From NCBI RefSeq assembly GCF_000756655.1, contig NZ_ARXU01000006.1, forward strand, positions 124,001 to 188,000: DNA of 64,000 nt. The letters run 5' to 3'. A program made the translations under genes and the position numbers. Source of the DNA: Alcanivorax jadensis T9. Its GTDB lineage: Bacteria > Pseudomonadota > Gammaproteobacteria > Pseudomonadales > Alcanivoracaceae. The notes beneath the pieces are model-generated. The model did not search any database, was not told the origin of the DNA, and saw nothing but the letters and a program-made list of their open reading frames with translations. Shown piece after piece: positions 1 through 10,055 of this stretch (the stretch's first letter is position 1; every line of letters begins with the position of its first letter).

Positions 1-161
1 TAGTCTTCCGGGCGACTGCCGATAAAACAGCAGGCAAAGGTATATTCGGGAAACCCCCGGATGATCTGGTTTACCCAGCTCGACACCCCGCCACTGACAT
101 AGGGAAAGGTCCCCTCCAGCAACAGGCAGATGTCTGCCTTATCCGCTCTGGGCAGCGCCAT
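1..161 (-). CDS. pelF: PelF, Pel polysaccharide glycosyltransferase (N-terminal fragment)
   Basis: The window edge leaves the first 53 codons. They read MALPRADKADICLLLEGTFP and then YVSGGVSSWVNQII, the N-terminal signature of PelF, the cytosolic GT4-family glycosyltransferase that polymerises Pel from UDP-sugars. The ATG at 161-159 lies inside the end of pelE, giving a 23-nt overlap and implying translational coupling. It follows pelABCDE in the canonical order; pelG would be expected beyond the edge. The identification rests on the N-terminal motif plus context. Confidence 0.9.
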   Translation of the reverse strand, partial: MALPRADKADICLLLEGTFPYVSGGVSSWVNQIIRGFPEYTFACCFIGSRPED

Positions 162-1149
162 AGCCCCTCCAGTACTCCACGGATTTATTCAGGGCAGTAA
201 ACTGACTGCCATCGGGAATCTGTTCCATCAATAAGCGCACCATGGGTAGTTGCCGACGTTGCAGGGCGATTTCCGCCAGCCAGGGATTCACCTGTGCCGG
301 GGACAACCCCAGCCGGCGGGCAAATACCAGGGATTCCTGGGATTCCCCCAGGTTTCCCTGACTCATCTTGATGCGCCCGCGCAATAACCACAGCCCCGCA
401 TCTTCGGGGGATTCCATCAGCCCCATATCGGCATAGAAGCTCGCCCGTTCCAGGGTCAGGGTCATGATGTCACCGCGTACCAAATCCTGATAACTCAGCT
501 CCCAGTACAACTCTGCAAGACGACGGGCAAGCCGGTAGCGACGAGACTCCTTGGCCCGCTCCAGCAAATGCAGGACACGGTCAATATCGCGGGTGATGTC
601 TTTTTCCTTCTGGTCGAGAATACCGTAGGCAAGCAGGCGCAAATCCTCATAGGAATCTCCCAGGGAATCACGCAGCAGTCGGCCGGTAATACGCCCGGGC
701 ATATCCTTGAGCACCAGCATTCCCTGAATCCGCAAGGCGTTGGGCGCGGTCTCACTGGTAAGCAAGCTTTTCAGATCAATCTGCCGGAAACCGGCGCTAT
801 GTTGATTGTTGACCGGTGTAAAATAGGGCTTTGCCACCTGGGAAAAAGGCAGCGGCATGAACAGTGCCGGCAACATCACACCCAGGGCGATGCCACCGAT
901 AATGGTCAGTAGCCCGATCGCAGGGATAAAAAAGGCAAAGGAAAAAATCAGTGCCAGCGAAAACACTTTCGGCTTCCGAAAACGGGTCGGAAGAAAGGTC
1001 CACGCCACAGCGGACAACAAGGCCGACGCCAGACCATGGGCGACCAGGTAAAGCAGAAAATAGGACAGCGAGCTGTTCTGGCTGAGCAACAGCAGCAGTG
1101 AGCCCAGCTCGGCACTGATCGCATAGATAAGCAGCTTCCAGCTAGACAC
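139..1149 (-). CDS. pelE: PelE, inner-membrane TPR protein of Pel synthesis
   Basis: This 336-residue protein has two hydrophobic segments in its first 110 residues (around LLIYAISAELGSLLLLL and the FSLALIFSFAFFIPAIGLL stretch). A soluble, helix-rich C-terminal half with TPR-like repeats follows (for example around AGLWLLRGRIKMSQGNLGES). This matches PelE, which binds PelD in the inner-membrane synthase complex. I chose the GTG at 1149 because GGAGG lies about 8 nt upstream, and because the reading frame further upstream is only the antisense-like overlap with pelD. The start overlaps the pelD stop by 8 nt, so the two are coupled. The 3' end overlaps pelF. Confidence 0.88.
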   Translation of the reverse strand: MSSWKLLIYAISAELGSLLLLLSQNSSLSYFLLYLVAHGLASALLSAVAWTFLPTRFRKPKVFSLALIFSFAFFIPAIGLLTIIGGIALGVMLPALFMPLPFSQVAKPYFTPVNNQHSAGFRQIDLKSLLTSETAPNALRIQGMLVLKDMPGRITGRLLRDSLGDSYEDLRLLAYGILDQKEKDITRDIDRVLHLLERAKESRRYRLARRLAELYWELSYQDLVRGDIMTLTLERASFYADMGLMESPEDAGLWLLRGRIKMSQGNLGESQESLVFARRLGLSPAQVNPWLAEIALQRRQLPMVRLLMEQIPDGSQFTALNKSVEYWRGYGAAQSG

Positions 1150-2476
1150 CGGCCACCTCCAGCAACTCACGGAGCTGATCGCCAGGGTCACGCTCACCCA
1201 GTAATCGATGGTAGTACTTCACCCCGGCCTGGCGGAGGCTGAAGAAGGCATAGTCCTCCTGTAGCCATTTTTCCGTGCGCAGTACAAAACCTTCCAGACT
1301 GGAATCACCAGTCATCGGCATCATAATCATCAGCACGTTGTCATGGACCCACCAAGCCAGATCCAGACTACGTAGGCCCCGCGCCAGCGCTTCCAGAATC
1401 TGCGCGGCCTGTTCGCTGTCATCGGCCACAAACAGGGTCAGGGCGGTGTCCACCCGCGCTTCACCGCGCAACCGGGAAAGCGCCGTCATTTCACTGGCAA
1501 AGCGGGTCGGCAGGTTCGGCCAGGTATCCAGAAGGCTGTCCACCTCTTCTCCGTAGTGCGCCACATCCGCATAGAAGTTCAGTAGCACAGAGAGCAACTG
1601 CAGGTTTTCATAATTCATGGACAGGAACGGCAACCGTTCCACCACCAGCACACCGATCATTTCCCCGGCACTGTTGGTCACCGGTGCGGCCACCAGATAG
1701 CGGCCCACATAGGCATCATCCTGGGTGTTCTGCTGAACATGGGCGAGCATGCCGATGTCCAGGGCATGATTGAGCAGGGCATCGTGCTGATCCAGAGGCT
1801 TGTTCTCACCCAGCAGAGCGGCGGCCTGGTCATTGACCTTGCCGTCCAGGACTGGATACAGGGCAGCGCGTTGTAATTGACAGTACTCCGCCAGCAAATT
1901 GATCAGATCATCCGCAGCCGGCAGGACTTTGCTGTCGCTTTCATCCAGGGTCAGATCGCGCAGACGGAACAATGCATCGCGCACGGTGTAGGGCCTGACC
2001 AGCAGATTCTCTTCCAGGCGGTCATGGGAAAGTCGTAATAGCACATGACGCTGGGTCAGGTTTTGCAGACGTTCCAGGGCATAACTGGCAGCGCTTTCCG
2101 CCCGTTGCAGGCGAACCCGCCACAGGTCAGCGAATTCACCGCAGACCAGGCTGAGAATAAAACCGCCCAACATGGTGCCTTCGGGGAAATCCCAGTCCCC
2201 ATAAAAATCCATATTGCGGAGCACAAACCAGCTGGCCAGCAGACACAACATGCCAAACACACCGGCAAGGCTACCGTAACGCAGCGACACCAGAATGGGC
2301 ACGAACAGCCCCCAGCGGAAGTTGGCATCCAGCGCCAGGGGGTCCTCGGAACGTAACCATAGCCCCATTGCAACTGCCGCCACAGTCAGCAGTACCGCCT
2401 CCAGCACCACCCACAAGGGTCTTGCCGGCGGTGCCACCAGGGCAGGGATGACGGTGCTAGCCAGCCATTTTCGCAT
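1142..2476 (-). CDS. pelD: PelD, c-di-GMP receptor of the Pel machinery
   Basis: This is a 444-residue inner-membrane protein. Four hydrophobic segments occupy roughly residues 15-110 (for example LWVVLEAVLLTVAAVAMGLW), followed by a linker helix, a GAF-like domain and a degenerate GGDEF domain without an active-site GG[DE]EF. An RSLD motif at residues 369-372 fits the RxxD inhibitory-site motif that binds c-di-GMP in Pseudomonas PelD (R367-D370 there), and an Arg near residue 400 could be the second ligand. The ATG at 2476 overlaps the pelC stop by one base (TGATG). A longer in-frame extension exists upstream but runs through pelC and has no family similarity. Confidence 0.93.
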   Translation of the reverse strand: MRKWLASTVIPALVAPPARPLWVVLEAVLLTVAAVAMGLWLRSEDPLALDANFRWGLFVPILVSLRYGSLAGVFGMLCLLASWFVLRNMDFYGDWDFPEGTMLGGFILSLVCGEFADLWRVRLQRAESAASYALERLQNLTQRHVLLRLSHDRLEENLLVRPYTVRDALFRLRDLTLDESDSKVLPAADDLINLLAEYCQLQRAALYPVLDGKVNDQAAALLGENKPLDQHDALLNHALDIGMLAHVQQNTQDDAYVGRYLVAAPVTNSAGEMIGVLVVERLPFLSMNYENLQLLSVLLNFYADVAHYGEEVDSLLDTWPNLPTRFASEMTALSRLRGEARVDTALTLFVADDSEQAAQILEALARGLRSLDLAWWVHDNVLMIMMPMTGDSSLEGFVLRTEKWLQEDYAFFSLRQAGVKYYHRLLGERDPGDQLRELLEVAGV

Positions 2477-2988
2477 CAGCGAATGACCGGAGCCAGCAGC
2501 TTGTCGATGACTTTTTGCCCGGTCTGGCTGAGCGACGTTCTTGCCCAACCGGCGCGAGCACCGGTGCCGCTGTAGACGATTTTGCCGGAAGGCAGTTCGC
2601 GGATTTCCAGCATCACACCCACCGCCGGCTCGCCATCCACGCCGGTCTTGTAACGCCATTCATGCACTACGCCGCTAACCACATACCGGGCCGATTGCGA
2701 CTGCACCCAGCGATCCATCTTTTCCCGGTTGGCAGAGGAAGACGCTTCGAACAACAGGCCGTCATTACCGGTTTCCGGATAATTTTCCACCGCGGTCACA
2801 CCCTGCCGGTAAAGCACGGATTCCACGATGGCCGCTGCCCGCAGCCCGGCCTGGGGGGTTCCGGTGCGATTTACCAGCGGCAACACCAGCCAGGTACCTT
2901 CCGCGTCCAGGGAAACTCCCTGACTACTGCGTACATGGGTGCAACTGGCCAGCATCAGCGCCAGCAACATAGCAACAACCTGTTTCAT
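2476..2988 (-). CDS. pelC: PelC, outer-membrane lipoprotein of Pel export
   Basis: The protein has 170 residues, with a lipoprotein signal MKQVVAMLLALMLASC whose lipobox is LASC, so Cys16 is the predicted lipidated residue. The mature part contains the compact alpha/beta fold expected for PelC (VLPLVNRTG, VSGVVHEWRYK, LEIRELPSGKIVYSG). In Pseudomonas, PelC forms a dodecameric ring at the periplasmic face of the outer membrane that guides Pel to the PelB pore. A clear AGGAG lies 6 nt before the ATG. It sits 9 nt after the pelB C-part stop and touches pelD. Confidence 0.93.
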   Translation of the reverse strand: MKQVVAMLLALMLASCTHVRSSQGVSLDAEGTWLVLPLVNRTGTPQAGLRAAAIVESVLYRQGVTAVENYPETGNDGLLFEASSSANREKMDRWVQSQSARYVVSGVVHEWRYKTGVDGEPAVGVMLEIRELPSGKIVYSGTGARAGWARTSLSQTGQKVIDKLLAPVIR

Positions 2989-2997
2989 CTCATGCTC

Positions 2998-5766
2998 CTA
3001 GTAGTAAATCCTGTATTGCAGTTCAGCCCGGTAGCTATCTTCATCGTTACCACCGGTATTCAGTTGGCGCTCCACAGACAAATGCCAGGCATCGCGACCG
3101 ATCAGCGGCCCGGCCAGGCCCAAGCGGCCGATAAAACCATCACCGGACAGGCTGTTATTCACGTAACCCACTTCTCCCCAGCCCTGCAGGCGATGCGGGC
3201 GAATATGCACGTCCGGCATGCCGAGTAACAAGGACGCTCCGGATTCATTGTAATCCTGCGGCAAGGGACCAGTGTCTGACCCGGGCGGCAGCAAGGTCCG
3301 AACCTCCGCCATGCTGTTACCCGTTTCGGCAAAATCGGCGCGGGTATGGCGCAGGCGCAAGCCGGGTGAGAAACGGGACAGCCAGGGACGCCAGGTGCTT
3401 TGCACATTGATAATGCTGCCCTCCCCCAGGTTTTGACTATTCAGATCACGATACTGGTAATCCGCCCAATCTACACTGCTCTGCCAGGTAGATTGGGGCG
3501 ACCAATTCAGCTGGAACTGGCTACCGGTCCGGGAACCGCCCAACAGCAGCAAGGAGGTTTCATCCGCCGGCATCTGCCACTGGTAACGCCAGCTGGCAGA
3601 CCAGTCGGAGTGCCAGTTGCCGGCCACTTCCAGATCCGCGGTGGTTTCGCTGTTATCCAACAGCTGGCGCTGGCCCAGTGAAAAACGGTGACGATAGCGT
3701 TCGCGCTGATAGTGCCACTCCAGGGTCAGCCACTGTTCCGCTTCATCCACATCCAGCTGGGCACGATCGTTACTGGCGAACTGCCGTTGCCGGTAGCGCG
3801 CCGACAAGGTGCTGTGGTCACTGAATGGCTGGCTCTGGGTAAAGGCCCAGTCTGTCATTTGCAAGGCACCCAGGCGGCGCTGTTCCACCGCCAGAGCGCT
3901 GGAGCGAGCACTGGGCAACAACAGGGATTCCTGCTGATTGTTGGCGCCAGCCAGTTCCGGAGAGCCAGCCTGCATGGCCATTAGCGTCGCGGTGGCGCGT
4001 CGTTCTTCGCCCAGTTCCAACTGGCTTCCTAATTGCTCAGACAGCGTCAATTGGCCGGCATAACGTTCACGAATCTGCGCCACGGCATCACGGTCGTTAT
4101 TAAGCATGGCATAGGCCAGCGCCGACCCGGCATGCAGCCTACCGGCGGCCTGCTGCTTACGCAGATACCAGGCGCGTGCCAGCTCCGGCTCGCTATGGCC
4201 CAGCGCCCACTGGGCAAGCCATTCGGCACGGGCTTCGTCTACACCCTGCTGCTGGCGAATCTGTTGCGCCAGTTGCAGGGAAGCGTCACCGCCCTCAAAA
4301 CGCTGGCTGAGCGCCAGGCGCATATACCGGTACTGGTTCTGTTTGTCGTCACTGACCGTAAACGGCAAGCGCTGATGCAGATTGCGCAGCACTGGCCAGG
4401 CCTCACCATCCCGGCCCGCGGCAATCAGTGCCTGGGCGTACTGCCACTGCCGCTCCCAGTCTCCCGGTGCCGTTTGCAGCAGACGGCTCTCGTAACGGAC
4501 CGCCTGCTCGGCATGACCCAGCGCCATATGCGCGGCGGCCAGCACTTCCCAATAACGCCGGTCCAGGCGGATACCGGCCTCCCAGGCGGCAAGGGTCTGT
4601 GCCAGCTGAGTATCATCACCACTGGCGACCAGCAGCCACAACCAGGCGATGCGGGTTTCCCGATCCCCGGGAGCCAGTTCCAGCGCCCGCTGCAACCATT
4701 GCGCGGCACGTTCCATCTCGCCCTTGCGCAACAGCAGATTGGCGTAAAAACGCAGAAACGCCGGATCCTGATGCAATTGCGCGCGCTGGGCGTCACAAAG
4801 CTGGTGCAGAAAATCATCGATGGCCTGCCAGCGACCGGCATCCTGCATCTGATAGAGGGCGCCCATGGCAAAAGCCTGATCCCCATTGCGCTGCCAGGCC
4901 CGCTCCATCAGCGCCACGACTCTGTCGCGATCGTAATAACGGGCCAGGGTAATGTACTGGTACAGATCCGGCAGGGTGTCGTCACCCTGCTCCAGCAATG
5001 TCTGGTAATGACTCATGGCCGGCTGCCACTGTCCCAGCTCACTGGCCATAACCGCCAAACGGCGTGTCAGGTCAGGATCATAGGGCAGGTTTTCGGCATC
5101 ACTGCGCAAATCGGAATAAGCCGTCTCACGCTGACCCTCAAGCCAATGGTAGCGGGAGACTTGCAATGCCATATCCCGCTCCGGGCCATAGCGATTCATG
5201 TACTGCCGCGAATAGCGAGCGGCTTGCTTTCTATCGCTTTGATTCCAGGCCAGACGCTGCATTTCCCACAGCACAGCCTGGCCCGGATAGCGCCGATGCC
5301 AGTCAGCCAGGAACACCAGGCCTTCATCCGGTGTGCCGAGCAACTCATATTGGCTGGCGATGGTAGCCAGCAGATCACGGTCCCGGGGGGACACTTCCAG
5401 CAATTCCTTGTAAACCCGCAACGTCAATTGGTGGTCGTAGGCCAGCGGCGCCCGCTGCCGAACCTGCTGCCAGGCCTGCGGATCGTCAGTGTTTTCCGCT
5501 ACTTTCCACCAGGCTTTCAGGGCAGTACTGCTATCTCCCTGCCAGTCGGCGATCTGCGCCAGCCTCAGCAACCAGCGAATATCTTCGGGGCGCCAGTAAA
5601 GAGCGTTGTCCACTACCTGACGAGCCCGTCCCAGATTACCCGCCGCCACAAAGACCTCATAGCTATGGTCGTAGTAGCTCTCCACATAGGGCTCCGGCGC
5701 CTGGGCCAGAACAACGCCAGACAGGAATGGCAAAGGTAATACCAGAGTGAGAAGCAACCGCTTCAT
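2998..5766 (-). CDS. pelB: PelB C-terminal part: periplasmic TPR scaffold and outer-membrane beta-barrel
   Basis: The protein has 922 residues and starts with a convincing signal peptide, MKRLLLTLVLPLPFLSGVVL, followed by AQA. Residues of about 35-620 are helical TPR repeats (LGRARQVVDNALYWRPEDIR, WLQRALELAPGDRETRIAWL). The last 300 residues are rich in alternating aromatic/polar strands and end in RAELQYRIYY, a typical outer-membrane barrel terminus. This corresponds to the bulk of PelB, the Pel export porin and PelA-binding scaffold. In Pseudomonas, PelB is one protein of about 1190 residues; here the N-terminal module is a separate gene whose stop overlaps this start (ATGA, 5763-5766). GGGGAG lies about 8 nt before the ATG. 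Confidence 0.92.
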   Translation of the reverse strand: MKRLLLTLVLPLPFLSGVVLAQAPEPYVESYYDHSYEVFVAAGNLGRARQVVDNALYWRPEDIRWLLRLAQIADWQGDSSTALKAWWKVAENTDDPQAWQQVRQRAPLAYDHQLTLRVYKELLEVSPRDRDLLATIASQYELLGTPDEGLVFLADWHRRYPGQAVLWEMQRLAWNQSDRKQAARYSRQYMNRYGPERDMALQVSRYHWLEGQRETAYSDLRSDAENLPYDPDLTRRLAVMASELGQWQPAMSHYQTLLEQGDDTLPDLYQYITLARYYDRDRVVALMERAWQRNGDQAFAMGALYQMQDAGRWQAIDDFLHQLCDAQRAQLHQDPAFLRFYANLLLRKGEMERAAQWLQRALELAPGDRETRIAWLWLLVASGDDTQLAQTLAAWEAGIRLDRRYWEVLAAAHMALGHAEQAVRYESRLLQTAPGDWERQWQYAQALIAAGRDGEAWPVLRNLHQRLPFTVSDDKQNQYRYMRLALSQRFEGGDASLQLAQQIRQQQGVDEARAEWLAQWALGHSEPELARAWYLRKQQAAGRLHAGSALAYAMLNNDRDAVAQIRERYAGQLTLSEQLGSQLELGEERRATATLMAMQAGSPELAGANNQQESLLLPSARSSALAVEQRRLGALQMTDWAFTQSQPFSDHSTLSARYRQRQFASNDRAQLDVDEAEQWLTLEWHYQRERYRHRFSLGQRQLLDNSETTADLEVAGNWHSDWSASWRYQWQMPADETSLLLLGGSRTGSQFQLNWSPQSTWQSSVDWADYQYRDLNSQNLGEGSIINVQSTWRPWLSRFSPGLRLRHTRADFAETGNSMAEVRTLLPPGSDTGPLPQDYNESGASLLLGMPDVHIRPHRLQGWGEVGYVNNSLSGDGFIGRLGLAGPLIGRDAWHLSVERQLNTGGNDEDSYRAELQYRIYY

Positions 5767-6638
5767 CGCTGCTCCCCACGGCCACTGAGACGCAACAACC
5801 GCACTGCATAGCGCTGGGCCTGGGCCAGGTTTCCACCGGCCTGGGCCAGGCGCATAAGGCGGTACAACACAGCCTTGTCCTGGAAATAGAGGTGTTCGTA
5901 GCGGGACGCAAAGCGCAAAGCCACGTCATGCAAACTGCCGGCTTCCAGGGAAGCCAGCGCCTCGAGAAAATACTGCTTGCGAACGGTCGCGTCAGCAGAC
6001 GCCTCCATGGCTTCCCCATAAGCTAGCCCCGACGACAGGTAGTTACCCTGCCCTAACAGAACCCGCCCAGCTTTTTCATACCATTCGCCGGGCCGCTCGG
6101 CCTCAGTGGCAAGCAGCCGATAATAGCGCACGGTCTGTTGCACCTCCCCGAGCCCCAGAGCCATTTCCGCCAGTTCCCGGCGCTGGTCAGTAGTCAATGT
6201 CGACCAGTCCTGGCTGCGCACACTTGCCAGGGTCTCAGCCTGCAATCGGGAAGACCCACGCAGCTCCGGATCCATGGCCATCAGCCGCTTGAAATCCCAC
6301 TGCAATCTCAGCCAGCGAACCTCCGACTGGTAACCCGCATCGGCGGCTTCTACTCGGTCCAGTTGCACATCAGCTTCGTCAAATCGCCCCAGAACAATCA
6401 ATTCCCGGGCCATCAACAAACGCAGCTCATGATCATCCGGCTTAGCTTTCAGCCAGGCCTGCATATAACTCAAGGTCACCGCATCCAGGCGCGCATTGCG
6501 CAACGTGACGGCCAAGTCCCGGGGAAATGCCAGCCAACAGACCACCAGGATCAACAACAGACAAGCGAACAACTCTGTGGGGCCAAGAACCCGTAATCGC
6601 TCAGTGCGAACAGTGTAGCCATAGCTCTTCGAGCTCAT
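5763..6638 (-). CDS. pelB: PelB N-terminal part: inner-membrane-anchored TPR protein
   Basis: The protein has 291 residues. A single transmembrane helix near residues 20-40 (LFACLLLILVVCWLAF) is followed by TPR-like repeats (AWLKAKPDDHELRLLMAREL, LGRFDEADVQLDRVEAADAG). Position between pelA and the barrel gene, and the combined length of about 1213 residues with the next gene, identify it as the detached N-terminus of PelB. I chose ATG 6638 (GGAG about 8 nt upstream); a GTG three codons earlier is possible. The start overlaps the end of pelA by 38 nt. Because the downstream half has its own signal peptide and ribosome site, the split looks functional rather than a sequencing frameshift. Confidence 0.88.
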   Translation of the reverse strand: MSSKSYGYTVRTERLRVLGPTELFACLLLILVVCWLAFPRDLAVTLRNARLDAVTLSYMQAWLKAKPDDHELRLLMARELIVLGRFDEADVQLDRVEAADAGYQSEVRWLRLQWDFKRLMAMDPELRGSSRLQAETLASVRSQDWSTLTTDQRRELAEMALGLGEVQQTVRYYRLLATEAERPGEWYEKAGRVLLGQGNYLSSGLAYGEAMEASADATVRKQYFLEALASLEAGSLHDVALRFASRYEHLYFQDKAVLYRLMRLAQAGGNLAQAQRYAVRLLRLSGRGEQR

Positions 6639-9372
6639 GCTTCGCACTCCTGTAGTGATAGAGGGTTCCGTCCCGGCGCACTGGTTTCAGTGGTTCATCG
6701 TTATGGTTAAGCGAGCAACCATCGGCATTGCCGATGGCAAATTCCAGGTTGGTGTGTCCTGCCAGAGAAAATTGCATGCCATCGTCATTGCGAGCAAATG
6801 TAGTCAGGCGGCCATTGGCCTGTTGCAGGTAAGGCAACGAGTTCGAACCGGACTGCCAGTGAGCGGCAGCACCGGACAAATGCAGGTAGCGGCCGGGACC
6901 GTCTTCCCGGTAGCCGGCGACCCCATGGGTATTATTGGTCAGGGCCGGTAGCGGCAGCGCCTCAGGTAATCGCAGGGTGCGCAGTTCGCCATTGCCTTTT
7001 ACCCTCCAACCATCATTATCCCGGGCGATCACCATAGTGTTGAAATCCAGCACCTTGCGGGCATAGTCAGACGCAAATACCGGATGAAGCGGTTGCGACT
7101 GCGCCCATCGATAGACCCTTAGCAAGGATTCCAGAGCTGCCGTCTTGCTGGCAATGTAGGTGTGGTAATAGATGTTCACCGGCTTGAAGCGATAGGGGCT
7201 TTCCGTCAGTTCGAAAGTCTCGAGCACCCGCTCAAAACCGTAGAAAGGGCCACTCCACTCATTGGTATAAATGTTTTCGTTCTGGTTGGGCGCATACACC
7301 TGGTATTCGTCACCCTTGGGCAGGCCGATTCCCTTGATCAAGGTCCAGGTGGGTGCACTGTGGGTGATGATGGTATCGCTGCCGTTCATATTCAGCAGGT
7401 TGCCCCGGCGTGCCGCAGCCAGCGCTTCAGGAGTGGGCAGGGTATCCCCGCTCCACAACACCATTTCGGTGCGCTTGCCCCCGGCCAGCAGGTTATCGTT
7501 GATGTACTGTGCCGAACCGACCACTTCACGCACCGGGTCCATCTGGTAGTCCGGGATAGGCAGGCGCAATTGTCCTTCCGGGCCATACAGCTCCCCGGGC
7601 ATTTGCTGGGCATCGTACCAGTAGAAAGGATGAGAATAAGTGTGGGTAGCCGCTTCCACGTGGGGTAAGGCAAACATTTCCCGGGCGATCTGCTCCAGCT
7701 CGGCGGACATTTTCGGGTAGAGGCCATGAGCCGCCACTTCGCCCTCGATCACCGAGATGGTAGTGGGCACATCAAAACGTTTGAGCACTTCCTCCAGCAA
7801 TACCCGGGCATCGGTTTGCCCCTGATAACCCTTCACCTCGGCCAGGCTGGGAAAACCATCTCCATCCATGTGCGCGAAGAGCAAGCGCCGACCATTTTCC
7901 GTCGTCACATCCGGAATCGGCATGTCAGGCAGCTGCAGTGCCTCACGAATAAAGGTAAGCGGATTGACAACCCAGCGATCCAGCCCTTCACCTTTCTCAC
8001 CGGGCAATATCGAACGGATCATGAAGGGCTGGAAGACATAGCCACCCCAGGGGGTCGTCGCCGCTGGCGTGTAGGTATGTTCCCCGGCGCGCAATTCCAG
8101 CCAGGGCTGGGCGGACGAATTGTGCAATGGCGACGACAGCTCAATCAGCTTGGGCAGTGCCAGCTCAAACCCCATGGCCTCATGCTGACGGGTAATCGCT
8201 GGCGGTGACAAAGGTGTAGGCCGACCCTCGAAACCGAAAGTCTGCGCATTGGGACCCACCGGATCCACCGCCGGGTAACCCAGCATGGCAATGGGAACCC
8301 CCGCATCTTTTTGCTCCACCAGCCAGGCCTCAAAATCCGCATCGGCCAGCTCTTCCTCTTCCAGCCACACGACAATACCGGCGTATCGTCCCTGCAGTGT
8401 GCCAGCTGGCATGGTGGAATTGATGGCACGGATATCAGGAACCAGCCCCTGGAACTGCAGTGGCATCAGCCCATAACGCACCGCATCGGAAAGCTCCCAG
8501 AATCGCTCATTGCTGCCACCATGAACCAATAACACTTGCCGGGGCAGCACCTCGCGCACGCCCAGCCCGAGCATGTCCAGCTCCGGGTTGGTGATCCAGG
8601 GAATCACACCGTGACCCGCAATTTTCCTGGCAAGCTCTCGGGCTTGCTCACGCTCAGCAGGCGGCGCGTAGTCAATGGCAATGGTATCGACCTGGTACTG
8701 GTCACGCATAGTGGCAAACTGATTGAGCAACCACTGGCGGTCTTCCTCGGGAACCGGCGCATAACGCTGCTTGCCTGCCTCCCAGCGCTGGTAAAGTGAC
8801 TCCGCCGCGATGGCATCCACCGGCGCCTCAACCATCGGCATCAGTTCAAAGCCGCGATTGAAAATAAAACGCGCCCGGGGATAACGCTGGGAGATCTGGT
8901 TAATCAGCGCCGCTAACCCTTGCCGCTGCTGCTCCCGCTGCTCAGGTGTCTTGGCAACTAGCTGGTAGCTATCCAAGGTATCGAAGAAAAAACCCCGGTA
9001 GCCTTGCTGCCACAGCGGCGCAATGACCTGCTTGAGGAGAAAATCTCGCAACCCCGGCGAAGACAGATCGAAAATATGGGAGCCCCAGTCCGGGTTTTCC
9101 CCCAGCAGCCACTCGGGTTTCAGGTTTGCAAAATACGGGCGAGATGCCAGCACTTCACCCAGGCTGACATAGGCATAGAAGCGCTGATCGCGAAACGAAT
9201 CGGGCACGCCACTGGCCTGATCCGGCTCAACAACCGGAAAATCATATATAGAGAGGGTGTGCCAGGGGATGTTAGGACCGTAGTAAAATGCAGCAGCTTG
9301 CTCAGAGCGTGGCTGTGCGCCAGCAGATGCTCCTATCAATACAAATAGAATCGCCAGACAAGAACGAATCAA
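6601..9372 (-). CDS. pelA: PelA, Pel glycoside hydrolase and deacetylase
   Basis: The protein has about 923 residues and a signal peptide (IRSCLAILFVLIGASAGA). The N-terminal half is the TM1410-like hydrolase domain (GH166 type), with the candidate acid Glu near residue 191 in DAIAAESLYQRW. The C-terminal half has a polysaccharide deacetylase domain: HMDGDGF gives the Asp pair near 503/505, and THTYSHPF gives the zinc histidines near 577/581. The spacing agrees with Pseudomonas PelA (D528, D530, H600, H604). PelA trims and deacetylates Pel in the periplasm. There is no ATG start: the best is TTG 9372, with GGGGA 5 nt upstream; TTG 9384 is the alternative. It is first in the operon. Confidence 0.93.
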   Translation of the reverse strand: MIRSCLAILFVLIGASAGAQPRSEQAAAFYYGPNIPWHTLSIYDFPVVEPDQASGVPDSFRDQRFYAYVSLGEVLASRPYFANLKPEWLLGENPDWGSHIFDLSSPGLRDFLLKQVIAPLWQQGYRGFFFDTLDSYQLVAKTPEQREQQRQGLAALINQISQRYPRARFIFNRGFELMPMVEAPVDAIAAESLYQRWEAGKQRYAPVPEEDRQWLLNQFATMRDQYQVDTIAIDYAPPAEREQARELARKIAGHGVIPWITNPELDMLGLGVREVLPRQVLLVHGGSNERFWELSDAVRYGLMPLQFQGLVPDIRAINSTMPAGTLQGRYAGIVVWLEEEELADADFEAWLVEQKDAGVPIAMLGYPAVDPVGPNAQTFGFEGRPTPLSPPAITRQHEAMGFELALPKLIELSSPLHNSSAQPWLELRAGEHTYTPAATTPWGGYVFQPFMIRSILPGEKGEGLDRWVVNPLTFIREALQLPDMPIPDVTTENGRRLLFAHMDGDGFPSLAEVKGYQGQTDARVLLEEVLKRFDVPTTISVIEGEVAAHGLYPKMSAELEQIAREMFALPHVEAATHTYSHPFYWYDAQQMPGELYGPEGQLRLPIPDYQMDPVREVVGSAQYINDNLLAGGKRTEMVLWSGDTLPTPEALAAARRGNLLNMNGSDTIITHSAPTWTLIKGIGLPKGDEYQVYAPNQNENIYTNEWSGPFYGFERVLETFELTESPYRFKPVNIYYHTYIASKTAALESLLRVYRWAQSQPLHPVFASDYARKVLDFNTMVIARDNDGWRVKGNGELRTLRLPEALPLPALTNNTHGVAGYREDGPGRYLHLSGAAAHWQSGSNSLPYLQQANGRLTTFARNDDGMQFSLAGHTNLEFAIGNADGCSLNHNDEPLKPVRRDGTLYHYRSAKHELEELWLHCSH

Positions 9373-9384
9373 TGAATTCCCCAA

Positions 9385-9494: not shown

Positions 9495-10055
9495 TCACAA
9501 AAGCCGACTGTTCTTGCCAAACTGGCTGCGCAGAAAGGCCATCTGATCCCCGCGGATACGATGGCTGTTTATCAAGGCCAGGTATTCGGCCATGTTTGGC
9601 ACATAGGGCAGCGCCAATAGATCCATCTCGATCTCTTCCAGGCGCCGGTTGCCTTTGCGCTGGTTACAGCGCCGACAGGCAGATACCACATTGGACCAGC
9701 GATCCCGGCCCCCTTTCGAGGTGGGGACAATATGATCACGGGTCAGGACATGTTCCGGGAAAGGCTTGCCACAATAGAGGCACACATGCTGGTCACGCCG
9801 GAAAAGAGCCCGGTTGGTCAATGGCGGTGCCGGACGCTTGTGGGGATTGGCCACACCATCGCAGGCAATAATGGAGTGCAGAGACAGGCTGGAACGCTCC
9901 CCGGAAAACCGACAGGTCCCGCCGCGAAGACGGTAGATCACATCCCCCAGCGTCCAGGTTACCAGCCCGCGCGCATAAAGGGTGGCGGCCATCTGCCAGT
10001 CCAGCCATTCCACGGGGGTGCCGGCTTTGTCGAGACGCAGAATGCGTTCACTCAT
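9495..10055 (-). CDS. HNH endonuclease family protein
   Basis: The 186-residue cytosolic protein has a C-terminal HNH domain. A zinc pair CLYCGKPF is followed by the catalytic segment LTRDHIVPTSKGG, then RDRWSNVVSACRRCNQRKGN, giving the second zinc pair CRRC and the terminal Asn/His face of the fold. The N-terminal half (ILRLDKAGTPVEWLDWQMAA) is typical of the stand-alone chromosomal HNH proteins widely conserved in proteobacteria. There is no restriction-modification partner or phage gene nearby, so it is not read as part of a defence system. The biological substrate is unknown. Start ATG 10055. Confidence 0.85.
   Translation of the reverse strand: MSERILRLDKAGTPVEWLDWQMAATLYARGLVTWTLGDVIYRLRGGTCRFSGERSSLSLHSIIACDGVANPHKRPAPPLTNRALFRRDQHVCLYCGKPFPEHVLTRDHIVPTSKGGRDRWSNVVSACRRCNQRKGNRRLEEIEMDLLALPYVPNMAEYLALINSHRIRGDQMAFLRSQFGKNSRLL

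Follow-up and report, generated by a model that had tools for sequence, protein, structure and literature searches.

Does PelB, the protein that exports the biofilm sugar polymer Pel, have to be one molecule? In Pseudomonas aeruginosa it may physically bridge both membranes, according to the accessible portion of one structural study (PMC12141448), and the available parts of two 2025 structural papers describe it as an inner-membrane helix with one tetratricopeptide repeat (TPR) scaffold (PMC12141448, PMC12022489). The question is raised by a 64,000-nucleotide (nt) stretch of the marine bacterium Alcanivorax jadensis T9 (contig NZ_ARXU01000006.1, positions 124,001–188,000; hereafter the window), whose pel operon carries pelB as two genes, referred to here as pelB-N and pelB-C. 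Their presence as two genes is confirmed as a real observation, and we propose that PelB is probably made as two proteins, a TPR receiver in the inner membrane and a TPR-porin in the outer membrane, held together non-covalently. The relevant features, in window coordinates, are:

5763..6638, minus strand: pelB-N, the first pelB half, 291 residues, with a membrane helix and about six TPR hairpins
6528..6581, minus strand: membrane helix of pelB-N, residues 20–37, from hydropathy and the model
2998..5766, minus strand: pelB-C, the second pelB half, 922 residues, with a signal-like start, a TPR array and a barrel
5763..5766, minus strand: ATGA stop/start overlap of pelB-N and pelB-C, read from the sequence
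5772..5777, minus strand: GGGGAG, Shine-Dalgarno-like, 5 bases upstream of the pelB-C ATG, read from the sequence
5704..5766, minus strand: predicted cleavable signal peptide of pelB-C, residues 1–21, from the sequence by a simple rule
3970..5682, minus strand: helical region of pelB-C, residues 29–599, from the TPR_15 match and the model
3004..3912, minus strand: PelB C-terminal beta-barrel, pelB-C residues 619–921, from PF24604, with 16 strands in the model

The original prediction, made from the letters of the window, had described a 291-residue one-helix TPR frame and a 922-residue TPR/barrel frame overlapping at ATGA, a GGGGAG site, and a summed length close to that of Pseudomonas PelB. 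Both open reading frames (ORFs) and the site are as it described, and the halves sum to 1213 residues, in keeping with the 1193 residues of the P. aeruginosa PelB chain in the PDB (9h80_M). Canonical PelB is one polypeptide of about 1190 residues serving both membranes; the window has two ORFs with an ATGA overlap. Aligned to 9h80_M, as had been suggested, the halves occupy consecutive stretches, with pelB-N best matching residues 12–252 (E 3.1e-8) and pelB-C residues 296–744 (E 2.6e-15). Because residues 222–284 of pelB-N also weakly match residues 254–316 of this chain, the cut is placed only roughly, near PelB residue 280–296.

The predicted architecture of each half agrees with this division. 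pelB-N has a single TPR family match in Pfam (TPR_19, E 7e-6) and one hydrophobic helix, with a hydropathy peak of 2.27 at residue 21. Its model, from a 37-row alignment, has a mean predicted local distance difference test score (pLDDT) of 91 and shows a helix at residues 20–37 followed by 15 more, 13 of them at least 12 residues long; a fold search against the PDB returned mostly general TPR structures. As modelled, the N-terminal helix expected for the PelB family appears to reside on the separate gene pelB-N and to be of inner-membrane type. pelB-C, whose N-terminus reads MKRLLLTLVLPLPFLSGVVLA-Q, displays the long TPR array (TPR_15, E 5.8e-38, residues 196–467) and the barrel (PF24604, E 2.3e-46, 159 bits against a cut-off of 31) that characterise PelB. 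Its model (35 rows, pLDDT 86.8) contains 35 helices in residues 29–599 and 16 strands, with low confidence at residues 1–23, and its top PDB fold match is 9h80_M (PelBC), with a template modelling score of 0.79 (by target length) across the 391 residues that this structure resolves. Since the TPRs of P. aeruginosa PelB end at residue 726 and are followed by an alpha-rich stretch before the barrel, as stated in the available part of PMC12022489, the helices of pelB-C need not, by analogy, all be TPRs.

An error in sequencing or assembly, or a frameshift of recent date, could make one gene look like two, and pelB frames do break at some loci (L103, L144, L188, L205 and L206; G and L numbers are our identifiers for genomes and loci). 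We regard this explanation as extraordinarily improbable here. Sequencing error is ruled out by the presence of both genes in 17 of 17 Alcanivorax genomes searched, and the signal-like start and low ratios of non-synonymous to synonymous substitution (dN/dS) also argue against it. Compared with the copies of five relatives, dN/dS is 0.08–0.12 for pelB-N and 0.07–0.10 for pelB-C, and by this measure both halves are under purifying selection; over the 22 signal codons only, it is 0.49 against L007. The same 17 genomes bear out the original prediction on a point it had chosen as its own test, the occurrence of the split in close relatives. Across Alcanivoracaceae the barrel is found in 23 of 46 genomes, belonging to two of the eight genera, and all 23, six of them from outside the genus, carry the pair. 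In the window's own genome there is one barrel-family (PF24604) match, and a tblastn search with pelB-C recovered pelB-C plus two weak hits in a TPR region on a different contig.

Broken and duplicated loci were also seen. In L103 (genome G587) and in G1408 the frame breaks within the second pelB half or the barrel, through decay or error. G011 has two pelB pairs, on two short contigs (L005, L020). Besides an intact pel operon, the Alcanivorax genome G003 (L126, L127; G003:C1 20000–59999) has pelB-C a second time, here with a changed start, no pelB-N and pelC-pelE behind it, as well as a decayed and more distant third pel set.

A signal peptide of its own had likewise been claimed for pelB-C. 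Using a simple, lax rule with controls rather than SignalP, we found a signal-like start in 34 of 35 split second halves (the exception being L147), as against 90 of 443 internal methionines and, around the junction in fused PelB, 1138 of 4500 positions, which favours the claim. Counted from the first start codon in each frame, the halves overlap by 4 nt at 28 of the 34 other two-gene loci. If the start closest to the stop is used instead, which biases towards short overlaps, 24 of 26 loci show 4 nt, and L134 (1 nt) and L148 (a 9-nt gap) differ. Conservation of the Shine-Dalgarno motif, present at 23 of 35 second halves in a scan that had no control, was set aside as support.

We surveyed progressively wider samples for the split, as the original prediction had advised in order to learn whether it is clade-specific; it proved to recur in several lineages. 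In the order sample 15 of 293 genomes exceeded the barrel cut-off, comprising six split, all of them Alcanivoracaceae, eight unsplit, and G045 (34 bits), where no pel gene was matched near the barrel match. Confinement to Alcanivoracaceae, true of that sample, is ruled out by the class sample and the named scan. The class sample has a barrel above cut-off in 17 of 369 genomes. Seven are split: the window's own genome, which this sample always includes, G473, G531, G555, G681, G603 (in three pieces) and G587 (with the second half further frame-broken). Eight are of unsplit length, with frames 1088–1339 long (upstream inspected for five), and two (G425, G677) are unclassed because their frames are truncated by, or extend up to, the end of a contig. 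Of 398 genomes sampled across the phylum, 16 exceeded the cut-off, mostly with frames above 1100; two, G1011 (658) and G864 (259, close to the end of its contig), have short frames.

The named scan took the best 80 of at least 557 confirmed relatives (at least 591 stretches), of which 68 loci could be classed, 23 as split and 45 as unsplit, a ratio that is biased because the scan keeps the PelA closest to that of the window. Dropped from the 80 were eight loci with no barrel on the contig (L145, L152, L156, L162, L178, L194, L202, L209) and four with unclear frames (L144, L188, L205, L206); from the 30 loci L103–L132 we dropped L103, L109, L116, L117 and L127. Among these best 80, split loci belong to Alcanivorax and Alloalcanivorax, to the Moraxellaceae Fluviicoccus, Agitococcus, UBA2031 and UBA8513, and to Rhodoferax, Hylemonella, other Comamonadaceae and Sterolibacterium, with a few under a general metagenome-assembled genome label. 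Several further gammaproteobacterial families are split at the same linker. In the family of G852, 47 of 349 genomes exceed the barrel cut-off; all six with frames of 1014–1148 that were checked are split, two (G1011, G1116) have a short PelB, and the other 39, assessed by frame length only, are mostly at least 1220.

The position of the cut is shared by the aligned pairs. In 26 aligned split pairs the junction falls within columns 573–604 of 2077, and in 23 of the 26 the first half ends 245–265 residues beyond the conserved proline that follows the membrane helix (218, 278 and 289 in the others). Among 50 fused rows, the largest total of residues inserted relative to the window (891) follows residue 297, next to the junction at 291, and the next-largest total (832) is at the N-terminal end, while in one fused row 32 residues between the junction anchors suffice. 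The cut thus lies in a length-variable linker, and PelB would therefore already consist of two modules with a hinge, which would explain why several lineages cut at the same place. The available text of PMC12022489 has PelA of P. aeruginosa binding TPRs 9–14 of PelB, and that of PMC12141448 gives residues 332–436. By alignment the PelA-binding stretch would lie on pelB-C; with the cut falling before the PelA-binding TPRs, pelB-C would by analogy carry the PelA docking site.

How many times did the gene structure change? Near-identical rows were removed before tree building, reducing 94 to 77. A quick PelA tree (77 rows, 27 split) implies four label changes, a quick PelB tree (76 rows, junction columns excluded) implies four, all of them forced by starred branches, and a carefully built joint tree of 27 selected rows implies three, with Alcanivoracaceae and Moraxellaceae grouped (98/97). 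From these trees the safe minimum would be at least three changes. Since the Pseudomonas-like outgroup and two Nitrospirota loci have an unsplit PelB, fission is the simpler reading. A single ancient fission, spread by horizontal transfer or later undone by fusions, would account naturally for the same junction in all aligned pairs and for the joint-tree grouping of Alcanivoracaceae with Moraxellaceae, and in the PelA tree no more than two changes are forced by starred branches. Split rows are nevertheless scattered in both the PelA and PelB trees, and the PelA data reject a single origin in which every split row falls in one clade (p 0.0069). Moreover, starred branches force four changes in the PelB tree and three in the joint tree, none of 200 joint-tree bootstraps has a single change, and re-fusion must repeatedly delete a signal sequence and a stop. 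We therefore consider a single event improbable.

Further variants of the locus extend the modular pattern. In family f217 the barrel is found in 19 of 29 genomes, and eight of the nine loci spanning pelA-pelC have a three-gene pelB (L108, L232, L233, L235–L238 and L240), the ninth (G1042, L239) being two-gene. The three genes encode a membrane helix with TPRs, a hydrophobic start with TPRs, and the barrel; Pfam, run on L108, agrees, and the other loci were matched to the L108 pieces. By eye, the barrel gene has a signal-like start in L108, L235, L237, L238 and L240. A SPOR domain lies between the signal sequence and the TPRs of the second half in L146 (Rhodoferax; E 1.2e-5, above cut-off) and at the same place in L163 from an uncultured betaproteobacterium, at 20.0 bits just under the cut-off of 21; among the four betaproteobacterial second halves scanned, it was not called in L177 or L157. 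Two loci are much smaller, G1011 (L109) with a PelA of 317 and a PelB of 634 residues, and G1116 (L276) with 300 and 623. In both, Pfam finds the GH114 hydrolase and no deacetylase in PelA, PelB has a hydrophobic start, few TPRs and a barrel, and no pelB-N match was found; no pelC was matched in L109, and L276 stops about 300 bases past pelB. Since their PelA, too, retains just the hydrolase, both appear to be a different type of locus.

The proposal of the original prediction, a fission of PelB that yields a TPR part for the inner membrane and a TPR-porin for the outer one, is supported by homology, the models, the signal-like start and conservation. We postulate that pelB-N would sit in the inner membrane and take Pel from the synthase complex, while pelB-C, with its PelA docking site, would travel via Sec and Bam to the outer membrane within the PelC ring, the TPR ends of the halves meeting in the periplasm without a covalent bond. 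Alternatively, the halves may no longer meet, with pelB-C exporting alone and pelB-N serving as a separate inner-membrane synthase accessory, perhaps helping PelE. BcsC and PgaA do export without an inner-membrane helix, each half here has its own targeting, and both the short PelBs of G1011 and G1116 and the second pelB-C copy of G003 occur without pelB-N. Yet the pair stays together in 23 of 23 barrel-bearing family genomes (split loci outside the family were recognised by having pelB-N, so pairing there is not independent evidence), the small loci seem to be of another kind, their PelA being reduced to the hydrolase, and the region around the G003 copy is duplicated and in part decayed. On balance we find separate action of the halves unlikely.

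Several points weigh against two cooperating PelB proteins that arose by repeated fission. The pelB-C model has a predicted template modelling score of 0.52, and its signal peptide is called by a lax rule that 20–25% of control positions also satisfy. The extra pelB-C of G003 (L021/L127) is without pelB-N, in a genome that also has an intact pair. Contact between the halves, their equal amounts and Pel production by this Alcanivorax are presumed. Change counts vary by tree (three or four), with only two forced by starred PelA branches; two of the three trees are quick ones with long rows and skewed composition, and the 27-row joint tree leaves out fused long rows, L124 among them. The trees do not tell fission from fusion. 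Even so, a natural split in several lineages suggests that a bridge made of a single molecule may be unnecessary, and if these operons work, the covalent link would not be required. More tentatively, it is possible, at somewhat less than even confidence, that Pel passes along a relay that needs no covalent membrane bridge, with PelB modules meeting at a hinge that was cut on three or more occasions, a further cut ahead of the barrel making the relay three-piece in one family, and with a peptidoglycan-binding (SPOR-like) module at the new free end holding the outer-membrane half to the cell wall, in place of the inner membrane, in some lineages.

The surroundings of pelB in the window are those of a complete pel operon in the order A, B-N, B-C, C, D, E, F, G, with pelB between pelA and pelC:

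6601..9384, minus strand: pelA, periplasmic hydrolase/deacetylase, an ORF of 927 residues, Glyco_hydro_114 E 2.4e-14
2476..2988, minus strand: pelC lipoprotein, with the start MKQVVAMLLALMLASC lipobox-like by eye
1142..2476, minus strand: pelD, cyclic di-GMP receptor, 444 residues from the ATG touching pelC
139..1197, minus strand: pelE, from its position and matches in relatives' pel operons
1..161, minus strand: start of pelF, the rest of which lies with pelG just beyond the window on the same contig

The 3' end of pelA overlaps the 5' end of pelB-N by 38 nt, and the PelA of the window is 33–58% identical to 14 other PelA rows. Matches to its PelC adjoin pelA/pelB in other loci. PelD_GGDEF was found by Pfam (E 1.6e-30, run on the longer ORF 1142–2659), and pelD in L126 equals that of the window in length; a Pfam scan of pelE gave no match. 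The L102 ORFs at window coordinates -1359..161 (pelF) and -2729..-1359 (pelG) were named from operon order and matches in relatives. Adjoining pelA, at 9495–10055, is a small HNH-endonuclease-like gene with weak PADLOC matches (PtuB, Cas9), probably an ordinary HNH protein. In L240 of f217 an epimerase-like ORF, recognised by eye, lies 3' of pelG; an Acidithiobacillus operon has wcaG after pelG, as reported in the available part of PMC5852609, and naming f217 through this likeness, seen in one locus, was not established.

A 2020 survey has a precedent, its Fig 5 iii legend listing 'pelB fission', with pelB as two loci in aquatic thermophilic species (PMC7112194). The window likewise has pelB in two loci, but that legend, the part of the survey available here, gives no species, junction or targeting by which sameness could be judged. 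Beyond it we add Alcanivoracaceae, Moraxellaceae, Comamonadaceae/Sterolibacterium and other gammaproteobacterial families, the junction, the signal-like starts and the three-gene form. Our search of open-access texts, with subscription papers and supplements outside its scope, returned nothing that describes the junction, the signal peptide, a three-gene form or the SPOR domain, no functional study of 'pelB fission' (a phrase met only in PMC7112194), and no text with 'Alcanivorax' and 'pel operon' together.

Compared with P. aeruginosa PelB (PA3063; PDB 9h80, 5wft), the window shares the N-terminal membrane helix, the TPR array, the 16-strand barrel and the position between pelA and pelC, but distributes one 1193-residue chain over two, cut near residue 280–296. 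In alginate export the TPR scaffold AlgK, an outer-membrane lipoprotein, and the porin AlgE are separate proteins. Pel differs from that pair in that most of the TPR region stays with the porin and the detached TPR portion bears a helix of inner-membrane type. To our knowledge, BcsC and PgaA have no separate inner-membrane TPR partner of the pelB-N type. pelB-C resembles them in combining a TPR array and a 16-strand barrel in one chain, and BcsC (9b8a) is among its fold matches. The accessible portion of PMC12141448 describes their barrels as alike that of PelB and both as without a PelC-like lipoprotein ring, and AlgX-AlgK-AlgE are named as interacting in that of PMC12022489. Set beside these systems, PelBs in two and three pieces put the question of the covalent link directly, and they supply ready modules with which to study the passage of the polymer from the synthase to PelA and on to the porin.

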